Notes: generated by a model not told the origin, from the letters alone. DNA of 53,689 nt from Verrucomicrobiales bacterium (GCA_028293125.1 JAQGPJ010000066.1:1-53689), one strand, 5' to 3'. Positions 24,810 to 45,268 are shown, counted from the first letter of the stretch. Made by a program: numbers and translations.

Positions 24810-25970
24810 TCATGGTTTGGGCGCGGTCGACGGCAGCGCTGCCTCCATCAGACGGTGGATATGGGGAATATGCGTGATGTGGTCCGGCACCTCCTCATAA
24901 TTGGTCAGAAGGCTGGCATAGCTCTGTGGATCTGTGGGATGGTAGCCATGCATGGCGCGGATGGGGCGCTCACCCATGTGGCTGGGCACGATGAGCACGC
25001 CTTCGGGCATAAGAAAGATCAGTTCCCCGAAATACCCGTCTTCAAAGAAAGCCCGGTAATGCCGCAGTTCCTCCTCCGGCAGGATGCGGCCATGCGGCAT
25101 GCCGGCCAGCGCCTGCTCGATCAGCGGGCGCGCCCGCCCCGTGAGAAACCAGAATCGCGCCATGGTGCTGTCATATACCACGGCATAGTCCTTTCCGAAC
25201 TCCAGCGGCAGAGCCTCAATGACCGTGCGCATGTCCACCAGAGTATCGCAGTTGGCCATGCCGTGATCGCTGAACACATGCAGCCTCACGGTCTGGTAGT
25301 TGCGCTTTGCCGCCTCCACGGTGCGGGTGACCCAGTCCTCGTACACATCCAGTTTGGTCCCGATCTGCGGGGAGTCATTCCCCACCATATGCAAAAGTCC
25401 GTCCAGGCCGGCCCAGTACTGAAAGGCGAAGTCGATGCGCTGCTTCTCCAGATCGGCGATCAGGCGGTCGCGGTTCTCCTCCTCGGGCCGCGAGGGGTCG
25501 GTCACGAAATAAGGCACCTTTCCCTCCTCCAGCAGGTCAAAAATATTGGACCCCCGGTTCATCCCTTTGGGCTGGAGCGGGCTTTTCTTCTCCGTGAAGT
25601 CGAAGAGATGGATAAAGCGGAACGGGATATTGTAGAGATCGAAGTATCCCCGGAACTTAAGCTGCACCTTCACAAACTTCGACATCCAGCGGCGGAAAAT
25701 GCGGCGGCCCGTCACTGCGGACGGCAGCCACCGCAGCGCTCTCAGGGAGCGGAAGGGGGAATGCTCCGGATCGTAAACAAAGTAGCACCAGTTGCGGTGC
25801 TCATCCGGCCAGTGGCCCGACAGAATGCTGGGCACGCAGGTGGAACTGTATCCGAAGACGCTTTCCAGTTTGCGCCGGTGCGGTGCCAAGCCCTTCAGAA
25901 AGGGCCGTCCTTGGAGGATTTCCCACCCGCAGGCGTCGATCATGATAAAAAGATGGAGCACCGGTTTCAT
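24810..25970 (-). CDS. Alkaline-phosphatase-superfamily phosphodiesterase-like protein
   Basis: 386 residues, no signal peptide or membrane helix, so cytosolic. It has the fold markers of the type I phosphodiesterase/nucleotide pyrophosphatase branch: FIMIDACGWEIL (first metal Asp), YSSTCVPSILSG (Thr nucleophile), AGLDGLLHMVG (Asp/His), FSDHGMA (Asp/His) and MHGYHP (His). All metal ligands appear present. Its start overlaps the stop of the CheY-like gene by four bases (ATGA), so it belongs to the regulatory part of the EPS operon. The substrate is unknown; it could be a sugar-nucleotide, a phospholipid head group or a signalling nucleotide. Confidence 0.82.
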   Translation of the reverse strand: MKPVLHLFIMIDACGWEILQGRPFLKGLAPHRRKLESVFGYSSTCVPSILSGHWPDEHRNWCYFVYDPEHSPFRSLRALRWLPSAVTGRRIFRRWMSKFVKVQLKFRGYFDLYNIPFRFIHLFDFTEKKSPLQPKGMNRGSNIFDLLEEGKVPYFVTDPSRPEEENRDRLIADLEKQRIDFAFQYWAGLDGLLHMVGNDSPQIGTKLDVYEDWVTRTVEAAKRNYQTVRLHVFSDHGMANCDTLVDMRTVIEALPLEFGKDYAVVYDSTMARFWFLTGRARPLIEQALAGMPHGRILPEEELRHYRAFFEDGYFGELIFLMPEGVLIVPSHMGERPIRAMHGYHPTDPQSYASLLTNYEEVPDHITHIPHIHRLMEAALPSTAPKP

Positions 25971-26338
25971 GAGGCGGGAGTGGTGAGCCGCTGGATGTGG
26001 TTGAGGAGTTCAGTCGGCGAGTAGGGTTTGGTCAGGAACACTGCCGCGCCGGAGGACTGCGCCTGTTCGCGGTCGATGAACTGCCCGCGTGCAGTGAGCA
26101 TGATGACAGGGATGTCGCGGACGTGTTCCATTTTCTTAAGCTCCGCGAGGGCGGTGAGCCCGTCCATCTCCGGCATCATCACATCCATGATGATGCAGTC
26201 CGCGGCGTTGTCGCGGGCGCACTCCACGGCCTCCCTGCCGTTGCGGCATACGTTCCAAGTATGGCCATGCTTGCGGAGGGTCATCTCCAGCAGCCTCAGC
26301 ATGTGGGTTTCGTCTTCAGCAATAATCAGTCTGGCCAT
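25967..26338 (-). CDS. CheY-like single-domain response regulator
   Basis: 123 residues, receiver domain only. Acidic pocket Glu8-Asp9, phosphoacceptor Asp52 (CIIMDVMMPEMDG), switch Thr82 (MLTARG) and Lys104 (LTKPYS) are all present. It has no output domain, so it works by binding a partner. It sits between the SpoIIE-type phosphatase and the phosphodiesterase-like gene with minimal spacing (30 bases; 4-base overlap). A cognate histidine kinase is not visible in the window. The REC-HPt protein at 31892 could pass phosphate to it. Confidence 0.92.
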   Translation of the reverse strand: MARLIIAEDETHMLRLLEMTLRKHGHTWNVCRNGREAVECARDNAADCIIMDVMMPEMDGLTALAELKKMEHVRDIPVIMLTARGQFIDREQAQSSGAAVFLTKPYSPTELLNHIQRLTTPAS

Positions 26339-26368: not shown

Positions 26369-28180
26369 TCAGGGAGCGGTCGGGGTTTCCAGCCGGTGGA
26401 GAAGGATGAAGGTCTGGTCATCCGCCAAAGGAGCTGTGGCGCTGTTCAGCCGCAGCCGGTGCAGCAGCGCCTCGTGAAGATCGTCCGCCGGTCCCGCCGA
26501 CCGGGCGCTCTCCTTCAGCCAGTGGGCCAGTTCCGTGTGATCCGCGAACGCTCCGCGCCCGTCCCGCGGATCCGTCAGGCCGTCAGTGAAGACCAGCATC
26601 CGGGATCCTGCCGGGAACCGCATGCTGGTGGAAGGGTAATGAATCTCCTCCATCAGACCCAAGGGAGGCCCGCAGGCCGGAATCTCATAAACCTCACCGT
26701 CGGGCATGGCGATCAGTACTGGGCAGTGGCCGGCGCTGGCCACTCTGACCTCCCCGCTTGGGAGATCCATCGTGCCCACCACGGCGGTGACAAACATTTC
26801 CAACCGGTCCAGATCCTCGAAAAGAAACTTCGCGGTCTGTTGCAGCACCAGGCCAGGGTCTTCATAAAGCTGGGGCACCGAGCGCAGCACCGAGCGGGTG
26901 ACCGCCGCCATCATGGAGGCACCCACCCCTTTGCCCATCACGTCCGCCATCATAAAGAAGACGCCGGTGTCGCCCCACGGCAGCACGCTGTAAAAATCGC
27001 CGCCCACATCCATGGCGCTTTCGCAGTGCGCCGACAGCTGCAGACCGGGAATGGAGGGCATGGAACGCGGCAGCAGCGACCGCTGAATGGAGGCGGCCAG
27101 CTCCAGCTCGCGCTTCACGGCGCTGGCGCGCTGCGCGGCCTCCTCGTGCCGCCTCCGTAAGATGTGCTGCGCGAGAAATTCTGAAAAGGTGTGCACCACG
27201 TTCACATCCCCGGCTCGCATGGGATCCGTCAGCCGGTGCCGGCCCAGACTGACCGTGCCCATGAGGATGCCGCCCTCATAAAACGGATGCACCAGACCCG
27301 ACTTGATGCGCGCGCGCGCAGGCAGGGTTCCCTCCTCAATCCATTGGTCCTGACCGGAAGCGATGGCGGCCTGCTCCAGCCGGTCAAAGTCCCCGTCGTC
27401 CAAGGTGTCCGGAGATGGCACCCCGCCCATCACCGCCAGAGTCCGGAATGTTCCCTCCTCCTCTGCTAGCCGGATCACGCCGCAATCCGACTGCGTGACA
27501 GTGCCCAGGTGGTGCAGAAGCGTGGAGGTGAAGTCCGACAGGTCCGTGATGCGGTGGCTCTCCGAACTGAAGCGGAAAATGGCGGACAGGCTTTCGTAGG
27601 CCGCCCCCAGTTCCTCCGTCATATCATCCAGAGTGGCCTCCAGTTCCTTTTTCTCCTCTGCGGTGAAAACCTCCGTTCTTGGCTCTCTGACATTGTCCGC
27701 GTTGGTGATGCGGCCTGACGCTTGGCGTGCACGCACCAAGGTGAGCACATTTTCCTGGGGACCCCGCAGATAGTGCCGGGAGCTGGTCATCTCCTTGATA
27801 ATATACAATCCGCGGCCCGATTCGGAATCCACATCCGGCAGGTCCACCTTGTCCGGCCATTCAAATCCCGGCGAATGGTCGGTCAGCGTGGCTGTCACGT
27901 CCTTGGGTGTCACAATCAGCTGGAGATTCCATGAATCCCCGGCACGCTCCGCAGGCATGTGCAGAACCACATTATTGGCGGCCTCCGTCAGCACCAGCTC
28001 CCAGGCGTTGAGATCTTCCTCCATCAGTCCCTGCCGTTTCAGAAACTTCCGGGCATTGACCGCGGCCTCGCGCACCGCCATCAGGGACGGAATTCCGGTC
28101 CAGCGCCAAGCGATTCCCTCCTCGGCGCCGGGAGGCGTGATGAGGGAGGGATCGTTCCGAAAGGGAGCAGGGGCACTCAT
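26369..28180 (-). CDS. SpoIIE-type PP2C phosphatase with RsbW-like ATPase and GAF domains
   Basis: 603 residues from ATG at 28180. Residues about 35-150 form an RsbW/SpoIIAB-like HATPase: N-box WELVLTEAANNVVLH, a degenerate G1 in LTDHSPGF, G2 SGRGLYIIKEM. A coiled linker (about 170-200) leads to a GAF domain (about 205-340). The SpoIIE PP2C domain follows (about 360-600) with SIQRSLLP, DVGGDFYS, ADVMGKGVGASMMAA, SAGHCPVL, TDGLTDPRDG and DDQTFILL; the metal Asp residues are present. Known relatives dephosphorylate STAS anti-anti-sigma proteins, and the ATPase half may phosphorylate them. A STAS gene lies 25 bases upstream. Anchoring is not seen, so it is cytosolic. Confidence 0.92.
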   Translation of the reverse strand: MSAPAPFRNDPSLITPPGAEEGIAWRWTGIPSLMAVREAAVNARKFLKRQGLMEEDLNAWELVLTEAANNVVLHMPAERAGDSWNLQLIVTPKDVTATLTDHSPGFEWPDKVDLPDVDSESGRGLYIIKEMTSSRHYLRGPQENVLTLVRARQASGRITNADNVREPRTEVFTAEEKKELEATLDDMTEELGAAYESLSAIFRFSSESHRITDLSDFTSTLLHHLGTVTQSDCGVIRLAEEEGTFRTLAVMGGVPSPDTLDDGDFDRLEQAAIASGQDQWIEEGTLPARARIKSGLVHPFYEGGILMGTVSLGRHRLTDPMRAGDVNVVHTFSEFLAQHILRRRHEEAAQRASAVKRELELAASIQRSLLPRSMPSIPGLQLSAHCESAMDVGGDFYSVLPWGDTGVFFMMADVMGKGVGASMMAAVTRSVLRSVPQLYEDPGLVLQQTAKFLFEDLDRLEMFVTAVVGTMDLPSGEVRVASAGHCPVLIAMPDGEVYEIPACGPPLGLMEEIHYPSTSMRFPAGSRMLVFTDGLTDPRDGRGAFADHTELAHWLKESARSAGPADDLHEALLHRLRLNSATAPLADDQTFILLHRLETPTAP

Positions 28181-28205
28181 GGGGTTCAAAGGTTTGGCCC
28201 GCAGA

Positions 28206-28502
28206 TCAGCCGGGGACTATTTCAAAAATACGGTGCAGGCGTGTCAGTTCCAGAATTTGGATCACGGCCGACTGGGGCTTGAGCAGACGCAGGGTTCCGC
28301 TCCGCTGGGCCGCCAGTTTCTGCAGGGAGATTAAGGCACCCAGCCCGCTGGAGTCAATGAATCCCAGATGGGAGCAGTCGAGGTTGATATCCGTGTAGTT
28401 CTCCGTGAAGCGGGTCTTCGCCTTGTCGCGGAGGGATGAGGCATCGTTTGCCGTCAGTTCGGACGGCGCGGTGAGGACCAGGACGTTTTCCGGTGATTTC
28501 AT
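28206..28502 (-). CDS. STAS-domain anti-sigma-factor antagonist (SpoIIAA/RsbV-like)
   Basis: 98 residues from ATG at 28502 (MKSPENVLVLTAPSEL). An upstream extension to 28589 is not family-like. The conserved phosphorylation loop is GFIDSSGLGALISL, D50-S51-S52-G53, as in SpoIIAA and RsbV. It is the expected substrate of the kinase and phosphatase activities encoded 25 bases downstream. Its binding partner is normally an anti-sigma factor, but no sigma or anti-sigma gene is nearby. The other STAS domains in this locus are fused to a glycosyltransferase (34130). Confidence 0.92.
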   Translation of the reverse strand: MKSPENVLVLTAPSELTANDASSLRDKAKTRFTENYTDINLDCSHLGFIDSSGLGALISLQKLAAQRSGTLRLLKPQSAVIQILELTRLHRIFEIVPG

Positions 28503-28589
28503 GATGAGAGTAAGAGGATTCGGGTGAAAATATTCAGTGATCCGGTCAGTTTTTAAACTGAAAGCGGGCTTCAGGCCAGGTGAAATCAC

Positions 28590-29861
28590 TCAGGGCGCGG
28601 AGGCAGGGGATGGAATGCCGGGTTGTCCGAGGAAAAGCATCCGCAGGCTGTGAATCAGAATTCTCCTCCGCCACGCGGCATCCGCGCAGCCGGCAAACAG
28701 GGCGGCGTGGGCTTTGGCGGTGTCGTCCCAAGGCGGAAAGCTGCCCTCCGCCTCCGGAGCCGTGAAGAGTCCTGTGGGTGCCTCCAGCCAGCGGCGTTCA
28801 AATTCCCCCTCCAAGCTGCCGGCCTCCTGAGGCGTCAGCGGGGGATTGCCTATCCAAGCGAATTCACCGGCCACAACATTCCAAAGCATGGGCCAGCGCC
28901 GCCACAGAGTGGTGAAAGAGGCGATTTCCCGGTAGGGCACCGGATTTCCCTGCGGTGCAATGCGGGTTCCCGCAGGCTGGCGGGTGGGGGCTGCCAGTGC
29001 CCTGTGGAATAAGGACCCGCCCCGCACCACCGCCAGCAGCAGGACCGCCGGCCAAGTGCACAGCAGAATGAGCAGCGCGGCCACACGTCCTGGAATGGAG
29101 GAGGACGGGGTGGGGGACCGAGTCAGCGGGGCCAGCAGAAAGGTATCGGTCAGATGGGTGACCGAGCCCGTGCGCCAGTTCAATAGATGACTGCCCATGG
29201 CCAGAGAGGTTTTCAGCAGGGTCATGGCTCCGAGCGAAGTACTGGGTCCGACCGTGCTGTCCTCCACCACAGCATCATGATCCACAATGGAGCCCTCCTC
29301 CACAAATCCCTGCACCCGGGCGCGGCGGCTCACACGGGCTGCGGGTCCGATCCAGCATGGAGCTGTAAGCACTGCGGTGGGATCCACCTGGGCACGCAGT
29401 CCGGTCCAAACTCCGGGACTGATCTCCTGGGTGCCTATCATGGAGGGGGCCAGCAGGGGAAGCAGCTCAGCGCGCGACCGGTGCCAAGCCTCCAGACTGG
29501 TCAGCACCGGGACCCCGGGAGCCTGGGGCAGAAAATCCAAGGTCAGCACTTCATGGGCTTTATAGGCCGCGTGTTTCTCCGCTGCAGTCCCCGGTGAGGG
29601 TTCGACGCTTTCGGTGACAACCCGCACCGACAGCTTCCACGTGTGGCTGCCTTGCAGAAAACGGCGGATCTCCTCCGGCCAAGCGCTGACGAGCATGAGC
29701 ACCTCCTTCACGCCGCGCCGCGCCAAGCCGTCCAAGGCATGGTCCAGCAGCGGCTTGCCCAGATACAGGGCCAAGGCCAGAGGGCCGTCCCCGGCCACGC
29801 GCTCCAAGCCGGGCCGGCTGTCCGGACAGATGAAAATAACCTTTTCCAAAGACCCGCTCAT
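28590..29861 (-). CDS. Pseudo-nucleotidyltransferase / beta-helix / phosphoglycosyltransferase-like fusion
   Basis: 423 residues. The N-terminal part (1-115) resembles sugar-nucleotide pyrophosphorylases (LGKPLLDHALDGLARRGVKE), but the Gly-rich nucleotide loop is replaced by ICPDSRPGLERV, so catalysis is unlikely. A left-handed beta-helix follows (about 150-235; VDPTAVLTAPCWIGPAARVS). Next is a hydrophobic segment (VAALLILLCTWPAVLLLAVV). A region echoing the end of polyprenyl phosphoglycosyltransferases completes it: WRRWPMLWNVVAGEFAWIGN against ELPQLINVLRGEMSLVGPRP in the neighbour. Its start overlaps the true transferase gene by four bases (ATGA). It may be a regulatory or scaffold partner of that enzyme. 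Confidence 0.7.
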   Translation of the reverse strand: MSGSLEKVIFICPDSRPGLERVAGDGPLALALYLGKPLLDHALDGLARRGVKEVLMLVSAWPEEIRRFLQGSHTWKLSVRVVTESVEPSPGTAAEKHAAYKAHEVLTLDFLPQAPGVPVLTSLEAWHRSRAELLPLLAPSMIGTQEISPGVWTGLRAQVDPTAVLTAPCWIGPAARVSRRARVQGFVEEGSIVDHDAVVEDSTVGPSTSLGAMTLLKTSLAMGSHLLNWRTGSVTHLTDTFLLAPLTRSPTPSSSIPGRVAALLILLCTWPAVLLLAVVRGGSLFHRALAAPTRQPAGTRIAPQGNPVPYREIASFTTLWRRWPMLWNVVAGEFAWIGNPPLTPQEAGSLEGEFERRWLEAPTGLFTAPEAEGSFPPWDDTAKAHAALFAGCADAAWRRRILIHSLRMLFLGQPGIPSPASAP

Positions 29862-30616
29862 GCGCCTCCTTTCCCTAGCAGCACCGCCGGCACGGTTTTC
29901 AGGAGAATCGTCAAATCCCTGAGAACAGACTGGCTTTCGATGTAGCGCACATCCAGCGCCACCTGCTCAGGAAACCCGATTTGATTGCGGTCGCCAATTT
30001 CAAACAGTTTTCCGGAGCGCTCCCCGACCTGCCAGAGGCACGTCAGGCCCGGCGTGGCCAGCAGCCGCCGGCGGTCCTGTTGGGAATACAGCGCCACCTC
30101 CCGGGGAAGCGGGGGGCGCGGGCCCACCAAGGACATCTCCCCTCTGAGCACATTGATCAGCTGGGGCAGCTCATCAATGGACGTCCGGCGGATAAAGCGG
30201 CCTACCCGGGTGATGCGGGGATCGTTGCGCATTTTGAAGGTTACCCCATCCTGCTTCTCATTTTTCGCCAGCAGGTCCTTCAGCGCCGCCTCCGCGTTCA
30301 CTACCATGCTGCGGAATTTGAGCATGCCGAACTCCCGCCCCCCATGCCCCACCCGCACCTGCCTGAAAAACACCGGCCCGCCATCCTGCCGCACCAGCCA
30401 CGCCGTCACCAGCAGCAGAGGGGACAGCAACAGCAGCATGAGACCCGCGACCACCACGTCCAGCAGGCGCTTAATCAGCCGCGACGATCCCACGGCGCAC
30501 TGCCATGCCACCCGTTTCCACAGCATGTAGGCGCGCAGGCGCAGGCGTCCCCAGGGATGGCCGGCACCGGCTATCCGGCCCGCCATCCGGCTGCTCAATT
30601 CTGCATCGCTCAGCAT
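29858..30616 (-). CDS. Polyprenyl-phosphate sugar phosphotransferase (initiating PGT)
   Basis: 252 residues. It has the C-terminal catalytic module of the WcaJ/WbaP family with a short N-terminal arm. Membrane re-entrant helix IKRLLDVVVAGLMLLLLSPL (about 48-67), then KFRSMVVNAE, the catalytic Asp-Glu in RTSIDELPQL, and LINVLRGEMSLVGPRPPLP. It loads the first sugar-1-phosphate onto undecaprenyl phosphate and so starts the EPS repeat unit. It starts inside the stop of the upstream GT4 gene (TGATG), indicating coupled translation. Confidence 0.93.
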   Translation of the reverse strand: MLSDAELSSRMAGRIAGAGHPWGRLRLRAYMLWKRVAWQCAVGSSRLIKRLLDVVVAGLMLLLLSPLLLVTAWLVRQDGGPVFFRQVRVGHGGREFGMLKFRSMVVNAEAALKDLLAKNEKQDGVTFKMRNDPRITRVGRFIRRTSIDELPQLINVLRGEMSLVGPRPPLPREVALYSQQDRRRLLATPGLTCLWQVGERSGKLFEIGDRNQIGFPEQVALDVRYIESQSVLRDLTILLKTVPAVLLGKGGA

Positions 30617-31878
30617 CAGGCGGGGGAGTTTGCGGTTGCGGAGGCGGCGGCACCTGCCGGCTGGAGGACGGAAACCCCATCCCGGACCTCCTGGGTCAGC
30701 CGCGTGAAGAGAGCCTCCAGACCGCTGATGTATCCTTCGAAATCATAGCGCTCACTGACCAGTTTCAATCCATTTCCCCCCAGTTCGCGCGCCTTGTTCT
30801 TGTCGCGCATCAGCCCGTCCAGCCTCGCCGCGTAGGTGTCCACATCCATCCAGGGCACCAGCCAGCCGTTGTGTCCGTCGATCAGCCAGTCCCGGATGCC
30901 GCCCGCGTCGAAGGCGACCACCGGCAGCGCGTAGCGCATGACCTCCAGACCAATGGTGGCGATGGGCTCGGGCCAGACACTGCTCAGGGCCACCACGCTG
31001 CATTCCCGATAATAATTCTTCAGCTCCTCCTGGGGCACAAATCCTTTGAAGGTCACCCGGTCCGCCAAACCCAGCTCCTTGCAGAGCTCCTCGCATTGCC
31101 CCTTCTGATTACCGTCTCCCAGAATGATGCATTCGAACGGCTCGCGCATCAGCGCCAGCGCCCGCAGCAGGATATCCACTCCTTTGCCCCGGATGATCTG
31201 GCCGGCGTAAATGATGAGATTCCGGTCCGAAAAGGAGCTGCGCAGCCCTTGCTCGCCCGCACGCGGCACCGGCGGATGGATTTCGATGCGCTTGGGATCG
31301 AAGCCGTTCTTCAACAGCTCATCCCGCATGTACTGCGTGACCACACACATCCGGTGGAACAGGTGGTTCAGGCGGATTTCCCGGCGCTTGTCACGGTAGC
31401 TGACCCACTTCAACGGCACCGGCCCGTTGGCACTGCTGTCCTTCACCACGCACGCCAGGCAGCCGTAAACGCAGTACAGCGTCGCAGGCCGCGTGCAGAT
31501 GCGGCGGGTGAAGTAATTGTACTTGTAACTGCGCATGCAGTAAATGTCGTGATCATGCACCATTCTGGCCAAAGGCAGTCCGCTTTTGGTCAGAGTTTCG
31601 ATCACCGCAAGATCGGGCAGCTTGTGCACATACACCACGTCGGGCCGGAACGCCTCCAAGGCCGCACGGGTGGCGGCGGCGGTTCTATCGGGAGCATCCG
31701 GCAGAGCGTAACGGGTGCGGAAAACGGCACGCCAGTCATCGCTGCCGCGGCCTGTGTCGGGACCATGCAAAATGGCCACCTGATGACCGCGGCCTGTGAG
31801 CTCGCGGGCCACAATGATGACATTGGCCTCGGCTCCGCCGAGTGATCCAAACCGTTCATGAACGTACAGGATTCTCAT
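30616..31878 (-). CDS. Glycosyltransferase family 4
   Basis: 420 residues, ATG at 31878 (MRILYVHERFGSLGGAEANV). The loop GSLGGAE is the usual GT4 acceptor-side motif. A Cys-rich insert (YCVYGCLACVV) follows MVHDHDIYCMRSYKYN in the N-terminal half. The C-terminal half begins NLIIYAGQIIRGKGVDILLR and ends with EPIATIGLEVMRYALPVVA (E-x7-E). Cytoplasmic enzyme of EPS repeat-unit assembly, sugar unknown. It is coupled to the initiating transferase by TGATG and lies 13 bases after the REC-HPt gene, so signalling and sugar genes share a transcript. Confidence 0.92.
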   Translation of the reverse strand: MRILYVHERFGSLGGAEANVIIVARELTGRGHQVAILHGPDTGRGSDDWRAVFRTRYALPDAPDRTAAATRAALEAFRPDVVYVHKLPDLAVIETLTKSGLPLARMVHDHDIYCMRSYKYNYFTRRICTRPATLYCVYGCLACVVKDSSANGPVPLKWVSYRDKRREIRLNHLFHRMCVVTQYMRDELLKNGFDPKRIEIHPPVPRAGEQGLRSSFSDRNLIIYAGQIIRGKGVDILLRALALMREPFECIILGDGNQKGQCEELCKELGLADRVTFKGFVPQEELKNYYRECSVVALSSVWPEPIATIGLEVMRYALPVVAFDAGGIRDWLIDGHNGWLVPWMDVDTYAARLDGLMRDKNKARELGGNGLKLVSERYDFEGYISGLEALFTRLTQEVRDGVSVLQPAGAAASATANSPA

Positions 31879-31891
31879 AAGCGGAGATCAG

Positions 31892-32749
31892 TCACGAAGC
31901 CTGAAGGGCTGCCAGCTCCTTTTCGAGCACCGGCTTCACCCGCGCCCACTCCTCCTCCAGCCGGCGGACCAGGTGTGGCTGCTCCGGTCTGTCCCCCTGC
32001 GCGGCGAGATGCTCCAACTGGTTGAGCAGGGTTTCCATGAGTTTCAGGCCAAACAGGGAGCTGCTGCCTTTCAGCGAATGGGCGGCGCGGCGCAGTTCGG
32101 GCTGCTCCTGGCCCGTGCCCTCTGTCAGGCGGCTGATGCCGGAGAAGGCGTTGGGAAAATCGGCCATCCATTCTTGGAGCAGCTCCGCCACGCTCTCCTC
32201 TCCAAGCTCGTCCGCCAGTTGGCGGACAGCGGCATGCAGATTGTCATCCTCTTCGTTGCAGGGGGCGGACTGGGTGTTGTTCACGGGCATCAATGAGGAC
32301 AGGGCATTCATAAGTTCAGCCTGCTTGACAGGTTTGGGAACGTAGTCATCCATGCCGGCGTCCAGGCAGCGCTGGCGTTCCCCGCTCATGACGTTGGCGG
32401 TCATGGCGATAATGCGGCACCGGGGACGGTCCCATCCGGGGGATCCCTCCAGCGCCCGGATGGCGCGGGACGCCGCATAGCCGTCCATCACCGGCATGTG
32501 GCAGTCCATCAGCACTCCGGGATAATGCCGCTCTTTGAATTTCTCCACAGCCTCCGCCCCATTGGTGGCATGGTCGGCGAGAAAGCCTGATTTGGCCAGA
32601 ATCAGCAGCGACACCCGGGCGTTGATGGCATTGTCCTCCACCAGCAGCAGCACCGGCGGGCCGTTCCCCTCGCCGCTGGGCGGATGCCCGTTGGAGGATG
32701 GCGCCACTGTGGCAGGCGGCGTGGACAGCGCTGGGGATCCGGAGGACAC
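31892..32749 (-). CDS. REC-HPt phosphotransfer protein
   Basis: 285 residues from a GTG at 32749; residues 1-30 are Pro/Ser-rich. Receiver domain (about 32-150): VLLLVEDN, phosphoacceptor Asp82 (VLMDCHMPVMDGYAASRAI), Thr117 in AMTANV, Lys139 in VPKPV. HPt domain (about 175-280) with phosphorylatable His224 in RRAAHSLKGSSSLFG. Such proteins relay phosphate between a hybrid kinase and a response regulator. No hybrid kinase is nearby. The single-domain receiver at 25967 in the same gene run is a plausible partner. Confidence 0.9.
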   Translation of the reverse strand: MSSGSPALSTPPATVAPSSNGHPPSGEGNGPPVLLLVEDNAINARVSLLILAKSGFLADHATNGAEAVEKFKERHYPGVLMDCHMPVMDGYAASRAIRALEGSPGWDRPRCRIIAMTANVMSGERQRCLDAGMDDYVPKPVKQAELMNALSSLMPVNNTQSAPCNEEDDNLHAAVRQLADELGEESVAELLQEWMADFPNAFSGISRLTEGTGQEQPELRRAAHSLKGSSSLFGLKLMETLLNQLEHLAAQGDRPEQPHLVRRLEEEWARVKPVLEKELAALQAS

Positions 32750-32975: not shown

Positions 32976-34133
32976 TCAGGACGCCACAGTTCCCTTGCCC
33001 TGAATGGCGGATTCGTAAACCTCAGTGACGCCCGCCGCTGTGCGTGCCCAGTCAAACCGGGCGGCGTTGACCAGGCCGGCAGCACGGAGACGGTCGGTGG
33101 TGGCCCTGTCCGTGGCCAGTTTTGTCAGGGCCGCCGCCATTTCCGCCGGATTTTCGGGATCGATGGTCAGGGCGGCCGCGGCGACCACCTCCTCCAGAGC
33201 GCCCCGTGTGGAACTGATCACCGGCGTGCCGCAGGCCATGGCCTCGACCGGCGGCAGGCCAAACCCTTCAAACAGCGAGGGATAAATCATCACCTGCGCA
33301 GCGCGGTAAAGACGGGGCAGGGTTTCATCGGACACAAAGCCGGTGAAAATGATGTCCCGGGTGAAAGGGGAGGCGGCGGCGGCGGCGCGGATGATCTCCG
33401 CTCCATGCCAGTCGCTGCCCCCCAGGGCAAGCTGCCACGGCAGACCGGTGTCCTGTTTGAAGCGGGTGAAGGCATCGATCAGGCGCACATGGTTCTTGGC
33501 CGGATGCTCCAGACGTGAGATGTAAAGGAAAAAGGGCTGGCTCAGCGCCAGGGTCTCCGCGGCCCACGCACGGTCGGTGTCAGGCTGACCGGGGTGAAAA
33601 CGTGTGTGGTCGATGCCGTTGTGGATGATGTGCTGGCGATTCTGCGGAATACCGAAAAACCGTTCGATGTCCCGCGCGGTGCTGTGGCTGATGGCAATGA
33701 GGCCATTCTGGCTGCGGGCCAGGCGCCGCACGACCACCCGCCCGTAAAACATACGGGCGGCGTCGTATTTTTTCCTGACATGAAACGGTGCCAGATCATG
33801 GATCGTCCCCACACGGGCGCAGGGGGCGGACAGGACCAGCCGCCGGTAGCTGGGGGCGTGCAGCACCTCCAGTTTGAGTTTGCCGGCCTCCCTGGGCAGC
33901 TGCAGCTGGTGCCAGAGAATGTTTTTCACCGGCGGGCGCTCCGATTCCGGCACGGTCACCAGACGGCATCGGCCGTCCGTGAAAGCAAACAGGGGCAGAT
34001 CCCGCTCCAGCACAAACAGCGTGAGGTCCACGCGGCCGGTTTTCAACAGTTCCCGCACAAGGGCAAACACATACTGGCCCACGCCGGACTTGCCCCCCTG
34101 GATCATCGTTGTCGTCAGGCCGGCCCTGATCAT
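32976..34133 (-). CDS. Glycosyltransferase family 4 (mannosyltransferase-like)
   Basis: 385 residues. N-terminal loop TTTMIQGGKSGVGQYVFALV, then VLHAPSYRRLVLSAP, GTIHDLAPF, GLIAISHSTARDIERFFGIP and the second-half start FFLYISRLEHPAKNHVRLID. The E-x7-E motif lies in EGFGLPPVEAMACGTPVISS. This pattern is typical of WbdA/MtfB-like GT4 enzymes, often mannosyltransferases; the donor is inferred only. Start and preceding stop overlap (ATGA at 34130-34133), so it is translationally coupled to the GT26-STAS fusion. 227 bases separate it from the REC-HPt gene downstream. Confidence 0.92.
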   Translation of the reverse strand: MIRAGLTTTMIQGGKSGVGQYVFALVRELLKTGRVDLTLFVLERDLPLFAFTDGRCRLVTVPESERPPVKNILWHQLQLPREAGKLKLEVLHAPSYRRLVLSAPCARVGTIHDLAPFHVRKKYDAARMFYGRVVVRRLARSQNGLIAISHSTARDIERFFGIPQNRQHIIHNGIDHTRFHPGQPDTDRAWAAETLALSQPFFLYISRLEHPAKNHVRLIDAFTRFKQDTGLPWQLALGGSDWHGAEIIRAAAAASPFTRDIIFTGFVSDETLPRLYRAAQVMIYPSLFEGFGLPPVEAMACGTPVISSTRGALEEVVAAAALTIDPENPAEMAAALTKLATDRATTDRLRAAGLVNAARFDWARTAAGVTEVYESAIQGKGTVAS

Positions 34134-35692
34134 GCAGCCACCTCCCCGGGCCCGGTCAGCAGGTAATTCTCCACACGCAGCAGACTGAGCACACGGCGCA
34201 CCATGTCCGAGGCCTTCACGAAGAAAAGGTTGATGTGCCGCTGGCGCGCACGGCGCTGCAAGCGCAGCATCAGCCCCACTGCGGCGCTGTCGATGAAGCG
34301 CACGGTCTCCATATTGATAATCACGGTGCTGCCGGCCGGCAGGTTTTCCAGCATTTCAAAGCCCTCAGTCTCCAGCGGGGTAATGTTGGCGGCACTGACC
34401 GCCTCCTTCCATTCCAGGATATGATCGATGGTCTCCGACTCCGGCGGAGCCGGAACCGGAACCGCCCCCGCTTGGACCCCGGTTTGAGGCACCAGTCTTA
34501 GCGCCTCCTCCACAGATTCGGCGATCACGAAATACTCCTTCAGCCGCATCAGCGCCAGAGTCTGCAGCACTGAGGGGCCCGGGGCGGCAAGAATGCACTG
34601 GCCGCCGCGCTCGCGGCATCCGCGGGCGAAGCGCACCAGCTTTCCGGTGCCTGTGCTGTCGATAAACTGGGTTTCGGAGGCATCGGCGATGATCCAGTCG
34701 TGCGGAGTGTTCTCCGCTGCGGTCCAGAGTTCGGTTTCGCGGGCGGAAAGCGCGTCCAGCCGCTCCGGCAGACGCAGCAGTTCCACAAGAGGTGCGGCCG
34801 GTTCACTGACGGTTGTCTCCGGGGATTCCTGGGCGGGACGGGGAATGACGACGTGCCGGCGCTGGAAAAATCCCCGGCCGCGCATCTGCCACAGCTGGCG
34901 AAGAATCCCGGGACCGACGATGCAGATGTCGCGCCAGTAACGGCCGGCCAGCCGCTTCGGCTCCTGAAGAATACGGAAAAACCATTCCAGACCCACTTTC
35001 CGCATCCACATGGGAGCGCGCTTGTAGGTGCCGGCGATGAAGTCGATTGAGGCCCCCACGCCCACACTTACGGGAATGCCCGCCTTGTGAAGGTTCATGG
35101 CGATCCATTTCTCCTGTTTAGGGCACCCGAAGGAGACCAGCAGAATATCCGGAGCAGCCTCATGCAGCCGGCGGAGGATCCCCTCATGGTCCATCTTTTC
35201 GAGAGAGGAGAACGGCGGAGACCAGGCCCCGGCGATTTTCAACTCCGGCCAGCGCCTGCGGATGTTTTTCAGGCCCAGCTGCATAACCTCCTCCCGTCCT
35301 CCGAGGAAGTAGACCCGGTAGCCTTTCTCCGAGGCCAGATTGAACAGCAGCGGCACCATGTCCGATCCCGCCACGCGTTCCGGGAGAGGATCCCCCAGCC
35401 AGCGGGACAGCCACACCAAAGGTGTTCCGTCGCAGACGACAAGGTCGGTGTTCAGCAGGATTTCCCGCAGCGAAGCATCCACCTGCACCTGGGCAAGGAA
35501 GTCCACATTGGCCGTGGCCAGCATGTGGGGCCGGCTGGAGGCGATCATCTCCTCGATCAGGCCAAGCGCCTGAGGCGTGGTGACTTGGTCAAACGGAACT
35601 CCCATCATCACCACGGGGGGCGGAAGATCCCGGGCCCATTCGCGGGGGATGGGAATGGACCGGGCGGAATTGACGGAACTGTAAGCAACCAT
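34130..35692 (-). CDS. WecG/TagA/CpsF (GT26) glycosyltransferase fused to two STAS domains
   Basis: 520 residues from ATG at 35692; an in-frame GTG at 35716 is possible. Residues about 25-275 are a full GT26 enzyme: VMMGVPFDQVT, TANVDFLAQ, CDGTPLVWLSRWLG, YFLGG, LLVSFGCPKQEKWIAMNLHK, GVGASIDFIAG, WMRKVGLEWFFRILQEP. The rest holds two STAS domains. The first (about 300-410) has the loop FIDSTGTGKL (D345-S346-T347-G348). The second (about 430-515) has FIDSAAVGLM (D468-S469-A470-A471). GT26 enzymes add N-acetylmannosaminuronate, glucose or similar sugars to lipid-PP-linked acceptors. Fusion to STAS, together with a SpoIIE phosphatase and a STAS gene in the same locus, suggests phospho-dependent control of the enzyme. 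Confidence 0.9.
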   Translation of the reverse strand: MVAYSSVNSARSIPIPREWARDLPPPVVMMGVPFDQVTTPQALGLIEEMIASSRPHMLATANVDFLAQVQVDASLREILLNTDLVVCDGTPLVWLSRWLGDPLPERVAGSDMVPLLFNLASEKGYRVYFLGGREEVMQLGLKNIRRRWPELKIAGAWSPPFSSLEKMDHEGILRRLHEAAPDILLVSFGCPKQEKWIAMNLHKAGIPVSVGVGASIDFIAGTYKRAPMWMRKVGLEWFFRILQEPKRLAGRYWRDICIVGPGILRQLWQMRGRGFFQRRHVVIPRPAQESPETTVSEPAAPLVELLRLPERLDALSARETELWTAAENTPHDWIIADASETQFIDSTGTGKLVRFARGCRERGGQCILAAPGPSVLQTLALMRLKEYFVIAESVEEALRLVPQTGVQAGAVPVPAPPESETIDHILEWKEAVSAANITPLETEGFEMLENLPAGSTVIINMETVRFIDSAAVGLMLRLQRRARQRHINLFFVKASDMVRRVLSLLRVENYLLTGPGEVAA

Positions 35693-35777
35693 GGGGCAAT
35701 TCCCCACGATAAGCACAAATCGATGGAAGGGAATGTTTTAATGAGCATACTTTTCCGGAAATTTCATTCACCCGCCT

Positions 35778-37346
35778 GTGCCGCTTACCGACTGGATCAA
35801 ACTGGCTTTCATTCTGCCCGCGTTTTTCGTGCTCGGTCCGCTGCTGGGGCTAGCTGTGCGGGGCAAGGCGAAGGCCCAGCGCTGGCTCTTCGGCCTGATG
35901 TGTTTCATGACCATCAACGGACTGCTGGCTGCCGGGAATTGGGGACTGACGCTGGACTCGGTGGAGATTTACCGCGGCCATGCCCGGGGATACCACTTCT
36001 ATTTCAACCACATCTTCGCCATCGCCCTCATGGTGGCCAAATGGAAAGAGGATCCCAAAAGCTTCCGCTGGGTGCCTCCCGGAATGTTCCTTTACGCCCT
36101 GTTCATCGCCGCGTGCACCCTGTCGCTGGTGAATGCCCCGCGGGTGGATTACGCCCTGATGGCGGTGCACAAGATGATCTTTTTTGCCCTCATCGGCATC
36201 GCCTCCTTCAATTACGTGCGCACGATCGAGGATATCCGGTTCTTTATCGTGCTGATGAGCGGGACGCTGGTGTGGGAGGCCTTGGTGGTGCTGAAAATGA
36301 AATATGTGCAGCATATTTACCAGGTTCCGGGCACCTTTGAGCACCAGAACGCCTTGGCGATGTACACGATTCTCATCGCGATGCCCGTTCTGGCGGCGGG
36401 GCTGGGGCCGAAGTTCCGGGGACAAGGGTGGTGCATTGCGGGTTTTCTGGCCTCCGCAGCCATTATCCAAGGCACGCTCTCACGGGGTGCGATGGTGATC
36501 TTCGCCGGCGGGGTGGCGCTGGTCTCCGCAGCCAGTCTGATGGAGAAGCCCACCAAACGGAGGTTCGGCATCCTCACAGTGTTCAGCGTCATCGCCGCCC
36601 TGGGGCTGGCCTTCACCCTCAAAACCATCATCAACCGCTTCCATGACAAGGGCAACGAGGCCAGTGGCGAACTGCGAGAGGTGCTGAACGAGGCCTCCCG
36701 GCAGATGGAGGACGCCCACCCCTTGGGGATCGGCTGGAACAATTACGCCCTGGTCATCAATGCGCCGTATCCCTACGCCAATGTGGTTTACGACTGGCTG
36801 CGGAAACGTGACCAGAAAGTGGACTACAACCTCACCAACGGGGTGGTGGAGAGCCATTACTACCTGCTGATCGCCGAGAACGGCTATCCTGGCCTCATCA
36901 CTTGGCTGATGGTCATCGGCGTCGCTCTTTGGCGCAATCTAAGGGGGTTTATGGGATTCAGGCACAGTTTTGAGCGCTGCGTGTGCATGGGCATCATGGT
37001 GGGGGCCATCCTGAATTATGCCCAGAGCACTTTGGAGCGCACGCTGACCCAGCCGCGCAACCTCATGCTCTGGCTGATCCTTTACGCCATTACCGGAAGG
37101 CTGGAACTGATCCGCAGGGCGCGGGCCAAATCCGGGGGCGCGCCGGAGGACAGCCATCTGACTCCCGGCCGGTCCTCGTTTTTGACCGGCCCGCCCCGCC
37201 CGGCTGCATGGCCTTCCCCGGAAGGCTGGAAAACGGCGCAGACCCTGATGGAGGGAAGGGGGGGCACGCTGTTTCACCGGATGCGGCGGCGGGGAAGCCA
37301 GCTCCTGCGGCGCAATAATGAAACCTTAAAAGCCCGGGGGTATTGA
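35778..37346 (+). CDS. O-antigen ligase/polymerase-like (Wzy/WaaL) membrane protein
   Basis: 522 residues from a GTG at 35778; no in-frame ATG is available upstream. About 10-12 membrane segments and a large periplasmic loop near 300-380 containing the family region MEDAHPLGIGWNNYALVIN and NGVVESHYYLLIAENGYPG, as in Wzy_C/O-antigen ligase proteins. The C-terminal 80 residues are cytoplasmic and low in complexity. It is the best candidate for the EPS polymerase since no other Wzy is present. It is transcribed divergently from the GT26-STAS gene across an 85-base gap, so one short region likely drives both halves of the locus. Confidence 0.88.
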   Translation: MPLTDWIKLAFILPAFFVLGPLLGLAVRGKAKAQRWLFGLMCFMTINGLLAAGNWGLTLDSVEIYRGHARGYHFYFNHIFAIALMVAKWKEDPKSFRWVPPGMFLYALFIAACTLSLVNAPRVDYALMAVHKMIFFALIGIASFNYVRTIEDIRFFIVLMSGTLVWEALVVLKMKYVQHIYQVPGTFEHQNALAMYTILIAMPVLAAGLGPKFRGQGWCIAGFLASAAIIQGTLSRGAMVIFAGGVALVSAASLMEKPTKRRFGILTVFSVIAALGLAFTLKTIINRFHDKGNEASGELREVLNEASRQMEDAHPLGIGWNNYALVINAPYPYANVVYDWLRKRDQKVDYNLTNGVVESHYYLLIAENGYPGLITWLMVIGVALWRNLRGFMGFRHSFERCVCMGIMVGAILNYAQSTLERTLTQPRNLMLWLILYAITGRLELIRRARAKSGGAPEDSHLTPGRSSFLTGPPRPAAWPSPEGWKTAQTLMEGRGGTLFHRMRRRGSQLLRRNNETLKARGY

Positions 37347-37400: not shown

Positions 37401-40400
37401 ATGCAGTCACCCTCTTCCTCCTTTCCTGCCACCCTGTCGGACTCCCCAGGCGGGCAGGCTCCCGGAAAGGTGAAATCCCTGCTGCCCTTTGATGTGCTGC
37501 GGGTGGGAATCGCGATGGTGGCAGGGTGGAAAAGTGTGCTGGCAGCCACAGTTCTTGGGGGCGCGGCGGCCGGAGGCACGGCTTGGGTGCTGGCCCGTAA
37601 TAAATACATTGTGGAGGTGCAGTTGGTGCGGCGGGAGGCCCCCAACACGTTTCAGGCAAGCCAGATCGGCCAAGCGTTCCGGCCGCGGGAGCTTTCCTCG
37701 GCCACGGTCATGTCCCTGATGGTGTCCTCGACCGTGCTTGATAAAACCGGCGCCGCCATGGACCCGCCCGTGGCCAGAACCCAGCTCCAGAAGCGCATTG
37801 AAATCGAGCCGGAAAAAAACATTGAACTGATCTCCTTGGCCTACACCTCCCCCGATTCTCCTCAGAGAGCCGCCTCCGACGTCAATCTCTACGCGAACAA
37901 TGTCGTGAAGCTGCTGGAGGAGATGCAAATACAGGAAGCCAAGGAGCTGCTGAAGGATCTGGATGTGCAGATAGCGCGGACGGATTCCCAGCTCAACCAG
38001 GCGCGGCTGGATTTGCAGACCTTTGCCCGTGAAAGCGGCCTCACCGATCCGGAGCGTGAGATCGACAACCTGATGCGGCAGATCGCGGATCTGGATCTGA
38101 AAATCGAAACCGCCGGCATCAACCGTCAGAGCACCGCTTTCAACATCCAGCAGATCAGGGAAGAACTGAAACTTCAGGATCCCACCATGCTGAAGCTGGC
38201 GCTGGAGCGCCAGCGGCTGGATACCATGTTGCAGGCTTTCACCAAACAAAATCCGGAGGTCATTGAGCAGGAGAAGAAAATAAACGCTTTGGCACAACAG
38301 GTCCAGGCAAGAATCGGGAAGCCCGGCGGCCAGGAGAATTTTGACACTTCAGGCAACACCTTGGCCAACAGTCTTTATCTGGATCTGATCCGTCTGCGCG
38401 GGGAGCAGGACAATGCGATGACGGAGGAGGAGAAGCTGCAGGCTTTCCGGGAGGGCCTGAGACAGCGGCTGGCTGTGTTGCCGGACAAGATCCAGCAGAA
38501 CACCAAGTGGCGCAATCAGATGACCTCCTTGGAGACCACCCGCGATCTGCTGGCGGGCCGGAGGAGGGAGGCCCAGCTCTATGCAGACAAGGCACCGGGG
38601 TATTACCGTCTGTTTGCCGAGGCCAACGCCACCAACATTTTGAAAGCCGGGCGCGGGCGGAAGATCATCCTGCTCGGTATCGCCGGGGGAATGCTGTTCG
38701 GAGGGCTAGCCCTGGCGCTCCGCGCACTGCGGGCCATCCGGGATGATGCTCTGGTCTCCCCATCGGACATCCGGCGGGCGGTGGGGGTGCCTGTGGCTGC
38801 GATGCTGCCGCCTAAGGAGACCATGAGCTCCGCCGATCTGGACCGCTGGCGCTTCACAACCTGGGCGGAGTTGGTGAAAACCGCCTATCCGCCGCCTGGC
38901 GGCGCGCTGATAGCGGGTCTGATTTCAGCCGGGGACGGGGAGGGGAAAACAACCTGGCTGCAGCACATGTCCCAAGCGGCTCTGGAGCGCGGTCTGAAAG
39001 TGCTGACTATTTACTGCGAACCACTGGACGCCAAAAAAGATCACGGACTGTCCGGTGGGAAGGATACGGTTCTGATGGGAAATGGAACGGCTCCGCCGCC
39101 GGGAAAAGTCCCGCCGGCCGATGACGGTGCTATTTTTTCCCTGGAGGAGGTGCTGGAGAATCCGGAACGTCATCTGCAGCTTCTGCGGGTGTCGTCCCCC
39201 CCGGCCCTCCAGCTGCAGCCGACGGAGGGATTTGCCTGGACTGCGGGCTGGCTGATCCTGTGGCGGGAAGCCATCGAAATCTGGCGCCGGGAGCCCGCTC
39301 TGGCGGTGCTGGTGGAACTTCCGGCGGCCTCCCGCATGGACAGCCTGCTGCTGGCGGAGACGATGCCTGTTCTGTTCTGGCTCGCCGGCAGCGGTCAGAC
39401 GCATCACAGGCAGGTCGATCCAGTGCTGGAAACTGTCCGCCGCAGCGGCCTGCCGCTCTCCGCCTCCCTTCTCAACCGTGTGCCCCCTGTGTTTTTAAAA
39501 CTCCCCGATCTCGCTAAATACGGCCTGTGCCTGGCAACGGGCCTTCTGCTGCTGGCCGGCGGCCAGACACTGGCCCAGACGGTCCCCGGTCCGGGAGCCC
39601 AGGACGCCGTCCCCCCAACCCCTGCGGATACGTTGATCCCGGGCACTCCCCCGACGGCCGAGCCTGCCGTTCCGGCGCTGGATGCCACGCTGCCTCCCAC
39701 AGGGACTGAAACCCCTCCGGGACTGGATTCCCTGCCGGAGGAAAGCCGGCAGTTGCCCTCGACGGACACTCCTCCCGCTGTTCCTGCGCCGGCGGTCATC
39801 CCGCCCTCCACGTGCAAGCCCCTGCCGCCGGCACCCCCGCCGGCCAATCCCGCCCTTGCCGGCTGGCAGCGGAATCTCACCCTGGGACCTGGGGACACGG
39901 TGAATTTCCAGGTTTACGGGGCCAAACAATACACCCGCACGGATGTGCCCATCGCGCCGGACGGCACTTTGACCTATCTTCACGTCAACGGATTCAAGGC
40001 CGCGGGGCTGACTATTGATCAGTTGCGTGAAGGCATGACCAAAGCTTTGGAAACCCATGTGCCAAATACCCGGGTCATTGTCACACCCGGGGCGTGGCGC
40101 AGCAAAAAATACTATATGCTGGGCACCGTTATGGAGCGCGGCGTGTTCACGCTCGACCGTCCCACCACGCTGATGGAGGCCGCAGCCCGTGCCCGGGGCA
40201 TGGAGACAGGGGTGGTGGATGACAACACGGTCGAAATCGCGGACCTGAAGCGCGCCTTCCTGATCCGGGCCGGCAAAAAGATGCCGATCGATTTCAGCAA
40301 GCTGTTCTACGAGGGCGATATGTCCCAGAACATCGCGCTGGAGCCGGGCGATTATATTTATTTTCCCTCCAACACTGTCAACGAAGTTTATGTCCTGGGC

Positions 40401-40757
40401 TCCGTGGGAGAGCCGGGGTCGCTGGGCATTTCACAGAATCTGACGGTCGTGGGGGCCATTGCCCAGCGCGGAGGGTTTGCCCGGTCCGCCTGGAAAAAGC
40501 GTGTGCTCATTGTGCGCGGCCAGCTGGAGAAGCCGACGGTCATCGTGGTGGACACCGCCGCCATTCTGAGCGGCAAACAGCGCGATGTGCCACTGGAGCC
40601 ACTGGACTTGGTGTATGTCACGGACAAGCCTTGGAAGTACGCCGCCGAAATTCTGGATCTGGCGATGAAGTCCTTTGTCCAGAGCGTCGCCAGCAGTTGG
40701 GCCAGCAGTAACGTCCAGCCATTCCTGGGCGATATTCCCTCCTCAAACTCCCCTTAA
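37401..40757 (+). CDS. Wzz/BY-kinase-like protein fused in frame to a Wza-like export domain
   Basis: 1118 residues, ATG at 37401. Residues 40-440 are a PCP: two membrane helices (about 43-65; 420-440) flanking a long periplasmic coiled-coil loop. A degenerate BY-kinase domain follows (about 495-695): Walker A GDGEGKT at 511-517, but Walker B reads VLVELPAAS and there is no C-terminal Tyr cluster. At about 707-727 GLCLATGLLLLAGGQTLAQT is a third membrane helix or an internal signal peptide, followed by a Pro-rich linker (about 730-815). An OPX region completes it: poly-export (GPGDTVNFQVYG, about 829) and SLBB repeats (YYMLGTVMERGVFTLDRPTT; EVYVLGSVGEPGSL). No stop lies between the halves. 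A GTG at residue 697 (39489) could also start a separate OPX protein. Confidence 0.85.
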   Translation: MQSPSSSFPATLSDSPGGQAPGKVKSLLPFDVLRVGIAMVAGWKSVLAATVLGGAAAGGTAWVLARNKYIVEVQLVRREAPNTFQASQIGQAFRPRELSSATVMSLMVSSTVLDKTGAAMDPPVARTQLQKRIEIEPEKNIELISLAYTSPDSPQRAASDVNLYANNVVKLLEEMQIQEAKELLKDLDVQIARTDSQLNQARLDLQTFARESGLTDPEREIDNLMRQIADLDLKIETAGINRQSTAFNIQQIREELKLQDPTMLKLALERQRLDTMLQAFTKQNPEVIEQEKKINALAQQVQARIGKPGGQENFDTSGNTLANSLYLDLIRLRGEQDNAMTEEEKLQAFREGLRQRLAVLPDKIQQNTKWRNQMTSLETTRDLLAGRRREAQLYADKAPGYYRLFAEANATNILKAGRGRKIILLGIAGGMLFGGLALALRALRAIRDDALVSPSDIRRAVGVPVAAMLPPKETMSSADLDRWRFTTWAELVKTAYPPPGGALIAGLISAGDGEGKTTWLQHMSQAALERGLKVLTIYCEPLDAKKDHGLSGGKDTVLMGNGTAPPPGKVPPADDGAIFSLEEVLENPERHLQLLRVSSPPALQLQPTEGFAWTAGWLILWREAIEIWRREPALAVLVELPAASRMDSLLLAETMPVLFWLAGSGQTHHRQVDPVLETVRRSGLPLSASLLNRVPPVFLKLPDLAKYGLCLATGLLLLAGGQTLAQTVPGPGAQDAVPPTPADTLIPGTPPTAEPAVPALDATLPPTGTETPPGLDSLPEESRQLPSTDTPPAVPAPAVIPPSTCKPLPPAPPPANPALAGWQRNLTLGPGDTVNFQVYGAKQYTRTDVPIAPDGTLTYLHVNGFKAAGLTIDQLREGMTKALETHVPNTRVIVTPGAWRSKKYYMLGTVMERGVFTLDRPTTLMEAAARARGMETGVVDDNTVEIADLKRAFLIRAGKKMPIDFSKLFYEGDMSQNIALEPGDYIYFPSNTVNEVYVLGSVGEPGSLGISQNLTVVGAIAQRGGFARSAWKKRVLIVRGQLEKPTVIVVDTAAILSGKQRDVPLEPLDLVYVTDKPWKYAAEILDLAMKSFVQSVASSWASSNVQPFLGDIPSSNSP

Positions 40758-45163: not shown

Positions 45164-45268
45164 GAAATTGAAGGGAATAAAAAGGCGGAAGGGGCAGCGC
45201 GGGAAAGGTCCGGCGGGTTCCCGGTCAAATCTGTTGCCGATTTCCTTACGTCCGCCACGGTGCGGAGT

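Follow-up and report, generated by a model that had tools for sequence, protein, structure and literature searches.

A GT26 glycosyltransferase fused to two STAS domains in a Verrucomicrobiales polysaccharide locus: candidate built-in output of a SypA/SypE-type partner switch

Introduction

The phospho-acceptor of the STAS proteins SpoIIAA, RsbV and SypA is the serine that follows an aspartate. In the best described case linked to polysaccharide, SypE of Vibrio fischeri phosphorylates SypA on S56 (PMC4517449, PMC10120452), and SypA controls polysaccharide downstream of SypE at a level below transcription, its target being reported as unknown (PMC10120452). In the HsbA/HsbD, BgrV/BgrR and SiaC/SiaD systems, STAS-type partners switch diguanylate cyclases by phosphorylation-dependent contact (PMC8457831). 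A STAS domain joined to a glycosyltransferase is mentioned in a review (PMC8256260) for all4160 of Anabaena PCC 7120, an envelope-polysaccharide enzyme with an N-terminal STAS domain.

The glycosyltransferases of family GT26 need to associate with the membrane. TagA is inactive as a soluble dimer and active as a membrane-bound monomer, and it is also inactive without its C-terminal appendage, which provides R221 and binds the membrane (PMC6493773). Our literature search, which covered subscription journals thinly, returned no paper on a GT26-STAS fusion; searching for a cyanobacterial polysaccharide partner switch, it gave a sigma-factor paper without polysaccharide content.

Results and Discussion

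The fusion gene and its product

The window analysed here is the whole stretch of 53,689 nucleotides from a Verrucomicrobiales bacterium (GCA_028293125.1 JAQGPJ010000066.1:1-53689). One open frame of the window encodes a complete predicted GT26 enzyme followed by two STAS domains, an architecture that an earlier note, made from the sequence alone, had described and that Pfam and AlphaFold2 agree in confirming. The positions given in that note, 34130-35692, are right, to which must be added the strand that it did not give. The gene and its parts are:

34130..35692, minus strand: GT26-STAS-STAS fusion gene, 520 aa (Pfam)
34907..35623, minus strand: GT26 catalytic domain and C-terminal appendage, residues 24-262 (Pfam, TagA alignment, model)
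34484..34795, minus strand: STAS1, residues 300-403 (Pfam, AlphaFold2, structural matches)
34655..34657, minus strand: codon of S346, predicted phospho-acceptor of STAS1, in FIDSTGTG (motif and conservation)
34154..34435, minus strand: STAS2, residues 420-513 (Pfam, AlphaFold2, structural matches)
34286..34288, minus strand: codon of S469, predicted phospho-acceptor of STAS2, in FIDSAAVG (motif and conservation)

The gene starts with the ATG at 35692, upstream of which stands GGGGA, and its stop codon ends at 34130, giving 520 codons with no internal stop; an alternative in-frame GTG at 35716 would yield 528 aa. Among Pfam families, Glyco_tran_WecG (PF03808) matches residues 83-252 with 204.2 bits (cut-off 27.4). 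STAS and STAS_2 (PF01740/PF13466) exceed their cut-offs over two stretches each, the best being residues 308-397 for STAS (78 bits, cut-off 23) and 448-507 for STAS_2 (66 bits, cut-off 29), with STAS folds at 300-403 and 420-513. The AlphaFold2 model, built from 38 sequences, has a mean pLDDT of 86.8, with values mostly above 88 in residues 24-262 and in both C-terminal domains, and with disordered linkers around 278-300 and 404-419. When the model was compared with solved structures, residues 300-403 matched SpoIIAA (Z 14.1), residues 420-513 matched RsbV (Z 13.6) and residues 420-519 matched TM1442 (Z 14.7). The C-terminal part, which was checked for missing STAS folds, thus holds both of them with Z about 14.

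Residues 24-223 of the model match TagA with a Z of 29.5 and an rmsd of 1.4 over 197 residues (GT-E fold), and T60, D88, R240 and R247 align with T37, D65, R214 and R221 in a profile alignment with T. italicus TagA. The protein therefore resembles TagA/TarA, WecG, CpsF and EpsA in fold (Z 29), in the catalytic T/D/R residues and in the C-terminal appendage, but while these enzymes end after the appendage, the fusions continue for 130-280 residues that form one or two STAS domains. In the AlphaFold2 model, the appendage directly precedes the disordered linker and STAS1; consequently, a partner of the STAS tail could plausibly alter membrane binding or oligomeric state.

Distribution and phylogeny of the fusions

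Homologues were sought in 289 genomes of the same order and then in a collection of 84,980 species genomes. The former yielded relatives with one and with two STAS domains, and the latter revealed fusion members in Verrucomicrobiota (Opitutaceae, Akkermansiaceae and others), Chloroflexota, Lentisphaerota and the isolate Desulfoluna limicola. The search for GT26 proteins with C-terminal STAS domains that the earlier note had suggested thus brought 37 distinct fusions from Verrucomicrobiota, Chloroflexota, Desulfoluna and Lentisphaerota. A maximum-likelihood tree of 120 GT26 domains places all 37 in a single clade with 58 members and 95/95 support. STAS-less GT4-GT26 enzymes are nested inside the fusion clade as sister to the six-member clade of the window protein (100/92), suggesting that STAS was lost there, and the basal position of the two-STAS window protein relative to its one-STAS relatives suggests a loss of STAS2. 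In a quick tree, itself short and weak, the STAS1, STAS2 and free STAS sequences mostly group apart, as expected for an old tandem and not for recent duplications. The idea that two STAS domains are required, for a switch plus a dock, is weakened since the closest relatives of the window protein carry one.

Other arrangements of GT26 were encountered along the way. The STAS-less GT4-GT26 fusions inside the GT26-STAS clade occur at loci L019-L028 (e.g., L021:289-2268), and at L109:9986-12079 GT26 is joined to an initiating sugar transferase (CoA_binding_3 and Bac_transf) in one protein of 697 aa. In the plasmid collection, the best matches were GT26 proteins without a STAS tail only.

Acceptor serines

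The acceptor serine is kept in all 30 free STAS domains, in 27 of the 29 STAS1 and 28 of the 29 STAS2 domains of two-STAS fusions, and in 6 of the 8 single-STAS fusions. In order of conservation, its column comes first in STAS2, shares the first place in free STAS and takes the second in STAS1. What differs between the domains is the following residue: Ser or Thr stands at +1 in 30/30 free STAS and 25/29 STAS1 but in 10/29 STAS2, the window protein having T347 in STAS1 and A470 in STAS2. The disappearance of the +1 Ser/Thr from 19 of the 29 STAS2 domains may mean weak phosphorylation, so that the two STAS domains might be phosphorylated unequally.

According to the earlier note, DSTG marks an apparently phosphorylatable and DSAA an apparently altered STAS domain, which would allow a switch plus a constitutive dock. 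While both motifs are present, S469 is kept in the family and only the +1 position is relaxed. The pairing of one phosphorylatable domain with one constitutive dock is not supported in that form, since no STAS2 residue is better conserved than this acceptor serine (28/29), and the reading of STAS2 as non-phosphorylatable was rejected because that serine is both present and conserved. GT26 proteins whose STAS tails lack the serine and are degenerate or hardly recognisable were also found (L034:871-2253, L158:9146-10414, L159:9400-10677, L161:9606-11027 and L162:8839-10683) and possibly represent a remnant family.

Gene neighbourhood

The fusion gene belongs to a same-strand gene run extending from 35692 to 24810, in which spacing ranges from -4 to 30 bp except for one gap of 226 bp between the GT4 gene at 32976..34133 and the receiver-Hpt gene. 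The run contains the fusion, a free STAS, a kinase/phosphatase and a receiver, the kinase module lying about 6 kb downstream of the fusion. The genes of the run and those diverging from it are:

32976..34133, minus strand: GT4 glycosyltransferase, overlapping the fusion gene by 4 bp (Pfam)
31892..32749, minus strand: receiver-Hpt protein, putative phosphorelay input (Pfam)
30616..31878, minus strand: GT4 glycosyltransferase (Pfam)
29858..30616, minus strand: initiating polyprenyl sugar-phosphate transferase, Bac_transf (domain match)
28590..29861, minus strand: sugar-nucleotidyltransferase/left-handed-helix-like protein (weak match)
28206..28589, minus strand: free single-domain STAS with FIDSSGLG, SypA/RsbV-like (Pfam)
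26369..28189, minus strand: SypE-like serine kinase (HATPase_c_2) and PP2C phosphatase, 606 aa (Pfam, alignment)
25967..26338, minus strand: single-domain response-regulator receiver (Pfam)
24810-25970, minus strand: Type I phosphodiesterase/nucleotide pyrophosphatase-like protein, overlapping the receiver gene by 4 bp, end of the run
35778..37346, plus strand: Wzy/O-antigen-ligase-like polymerase, divergent (Pfam)
37401-40757, plus strand: chain-length determinant-like and SLBB export fusion, 1118 aa
40758-41879, plus strand: outer-membrane export protein, directly after the SLBB fusion

No sigma factor was found among the genes examined in the run around the STAS/kinase module, and Rfam gave no match between 24 and 42 kb of the window. 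About 2 kb past the polysaccharide export genes, a Type III polyketide synthase of the chalcone/stilbene synthase family is encoded on the minus strand (44093-45295).

The locus shares with the syp locus of V. fischeri an acceptor-serine STAS, an RsbW-type kinase and a PP2C phosphatase combined in one protein, and receiver and Hpt proteins nearby, all within a polysaccharide locus. It differs in two respects. SypE carries a receiver in the middle of the protein, whereas here the receiver is a separate gene (25967-26338) and the 606 aa protein has no receiver match in Pfam; we consequently name that protein SypE-like and not SypE. Likewise, SypA is a free single domain, whereas the present locus has, beyond its free STAS, two more that form the tail of a GT26 enzyme. 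The SpoIIAA/RsbV anti-sigma antagonists have the STAS fold and the D-S acceptor motif in common with the tail but are free proteins. Control of an enzyme through direct contact with a STAS-like protein, set by the phosphorylation state of the latter, is known from the biofilm-linked pairs HsbA/HsbD, BgrV/BgrR and SiaC/SiaD, although these are separate proteins and act on a diguanylate cyclase rather than being part of a glycosyltransferase. Finally, all4160 is a glycosyltransferase-STAS fusion too, but its STAS is N-terminal, and the passage of PMC8256260 concerned does not describe a link to a kinase.

Association with a SypE-like kinase/phosphatase

The protein at 26369, which the earlier note had called a phosphatase, does contain a PP2C domain and in addition an RsbW-type HATPase_c_2 kinase domain. 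In an alignment of 18 members, the kinase residues E69, N73, D104, G108, G125 and G127 are invariant, as are the PP2C residues D398, D416, D536, D590 and D591; its structure model, built from 4 sequences, is poor (pLDDT 64).

Within 10 kb, HATPase_c_2 was found at 19 of 40 fusion loci and PP2C at 18, versus none of the 83 STAS-less GT26 loci in either case, while free STAS was found at 17/40 versus 2/83, the loci being partly redundant and related. As two STAS-less GT4-GT26 controls carry the kinase module about 12 kb off, the value of 0/83 holds for 10 kb only and genome-wide counts are the fairer test. Among the 289 genomes, a SypE-like protein of full or near-full length occurs in 15 of the 18 that encode a serine-bearing fusion and in 8 of the 271 others; two of the 15 (G094 and G279) were counted from locus context, without which the figure is 13/18, and one (G165) is a partial match. 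Collapsed by genus, which is as far as these counts are independent of kinship, the protein is present in 7/7 fusion genera versus 3/43 others (p 1e-6). Fusions without the acceptor serine (family f3) contrast with the serine-bearing ones, a SypE-like protein being encoded in 0/5 of their genomes versus 15/18 (p 0.002). The Chloroflexota fusions are accompanied by a STAS, PP2C, HATPase and receiver set of their own.

The association is not strict in either direction. In three of the 18 fusion genomes no full-length kinase was found, and two of them retain the HATPase part only. Eight genomes without a fusion carry the STAS-kinase-receiver trio, about four of them together with a STAS-less GT4-GT26; the module therefore has another output and does not require the fusion. 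Genomes with a STAS-less GT4-GT26 encode a SypE-like protein in 4 of 11 cases, one of them partial. HATPase-only kinase genes of 158-173 aa without phosphatase were seen at L177:10447-10968 and L178:6644-7120 (genomes G045 and G110).

A proposed partner switch built into the enzyme

Because the domain content, the catalytic and acceptor residues, the co-localisation and the co-occurrence are as described above, we consider a SypA/SypE-type partner switch with its STAS output built into the polysaccharide enzyme to be the best explanation, with a probability of roughly 0.6. The fusion protein would be a GT26 enzyme that associates with the membrane and serves a Wzy-type exopolysaccharide pathway. 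With the two SypA/RsbV-type STAS domains of its tail, the enzyme itself would supply substrates for the SypE-like kinase/phosphatase of the same run and places for it to dock; the kinase or phosphatase mode of that protein would probably be set by the receiver (25967) and the receiver-Hpt protein (31892). Depending on whether S346 is phosphorylated, and perhaps S469 at another efficiency, the tail would engage either the kinase domain or a different partner, and this choice would determine if an active GT26 domain gets to the membrane. STAS1 comes right after the appendage, the part that in TagA makes the active site complete once the enzyme associates with the membrane. If the analogy with SypA holds, the enzyme is most likely active when unphosphorylated. 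The suggestion of the earlier note that an RsbW-like kinase acts through the STAS serine is in line with the acceptor serine, the kinase in the run and the co-occurrence. We infer the phosphorylation itself, namely that the kinase would modify S346/S469 and thereby affect catalysis via membrane association or oligomeric state.

Other explanations of the fusion were weighed against this one. Since the window comes from a draft assembly, of whose 120 contigs it is one, a misassembly or a lost stop codon might have joined a GT gene to STAS genes. Yet 37 distinct fusions of the same architecture come from independent assemblies and one GT26 clade, and one of them lies in the complete isolate chromosome of Desulfoluna limicola (L056), which leaves this explanation a negligible chance; a frameshift hiding separate genes was rejected as well, the fusion being in frame across dozens of independent assemblies. 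A tail that binds a ligand or lipid, as MlaB or the STAS of YchM, would place the enzyme at the membrane or sense a small molecule. The STAS domain of YchM binds acyl carrier protein, and the solved structures that STAS2 matches include MlaB chains (Z 12.6). Such a tail would also suit enzymes that depend on the membrane (PMC6493773), but the best structural matches are anti-sigma antagonists and the association with a kinase would be left unexplained, so that we hold this to be very unlikely.

The tail could also be a scaffold that docks the free STAS or other polysaccharide enzymes in a stressosome-like fashion, assembling a complex through contacts between STAS domains or with other partners, its own phosphorylation being irrelevant. 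STAS domains build mixed assemblies in stressosomes, RsbS and stressosome chains match the fusion model, the STAS pair is in tandem with STAS2 relaxed at +1, and genomes lacking the fusion keep the free STAS module. We nevertheless find a scaffold unlikely, as it accounts neither for the acceptor serine being the top-conserved residue of STAS2 nor for the absence of the kinase alongside serine-less fusions. Alternatively, signalling might run in reverse, with the fusion as a sensor: its STAS domains would keep the kinase occupied, and how much enzyme there is, or its state at the membrane, would govern phosphorylation of the free STAS. A STAS protein acts on the kinase in the classical systems (PMC10120452), and the enzyme and the free STAS, encoded in the same run, would share one kinase. 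However, SypA/SypE, functionally the closest relative, has its STAS protein downstream of the kinase (PMC10120452), and a sensor needs no enzyme tail as output, which makes a reversed flow distinctly improbable.

If the enzyme is indeed directly controlled by partner switching, this mode of control would be an addition to exopolysaccharide and biofilm biology, and cells may regulate their slime directly through the enzyme and not through gene expression alone. The mode of action of SypA remained open because its target was unknown (PMC10120452); the fusion, kept beside the same type of kinase/phosphatase in several phyla, names a target class. We see an even chance that a serine-phosphorylation partner switch has the polysaccharide glycosyltransferase itself as its final target, the kinase and phosphatase acting on the fused STAS domains and thereby switching polymer synthesis directly, with no sigma factor involved. 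In that case the fusions would form an ancient, multi-phylum family of regulatory enzymes and would hint that glycosyltransferases are also what SypA and other free STAS outputs act on.

A further enzyme-STAS junction was noticed elsewhere. In the window, the gene at 28590-29861 and the free STAS gene abut with 0 bp between them, and at L120:5088-6623 (plus strand) a left-handed-helix/hexapeptide protein and the free STAS next to the kinase gene share one frame. Judging from position and domain, the enzyme part of the L120 fusion is probably a homologue of the 28590-29861 product, and this nucleotidyltransferase-like-STAS fusion hints at a second case of the enzyme-STAS design.
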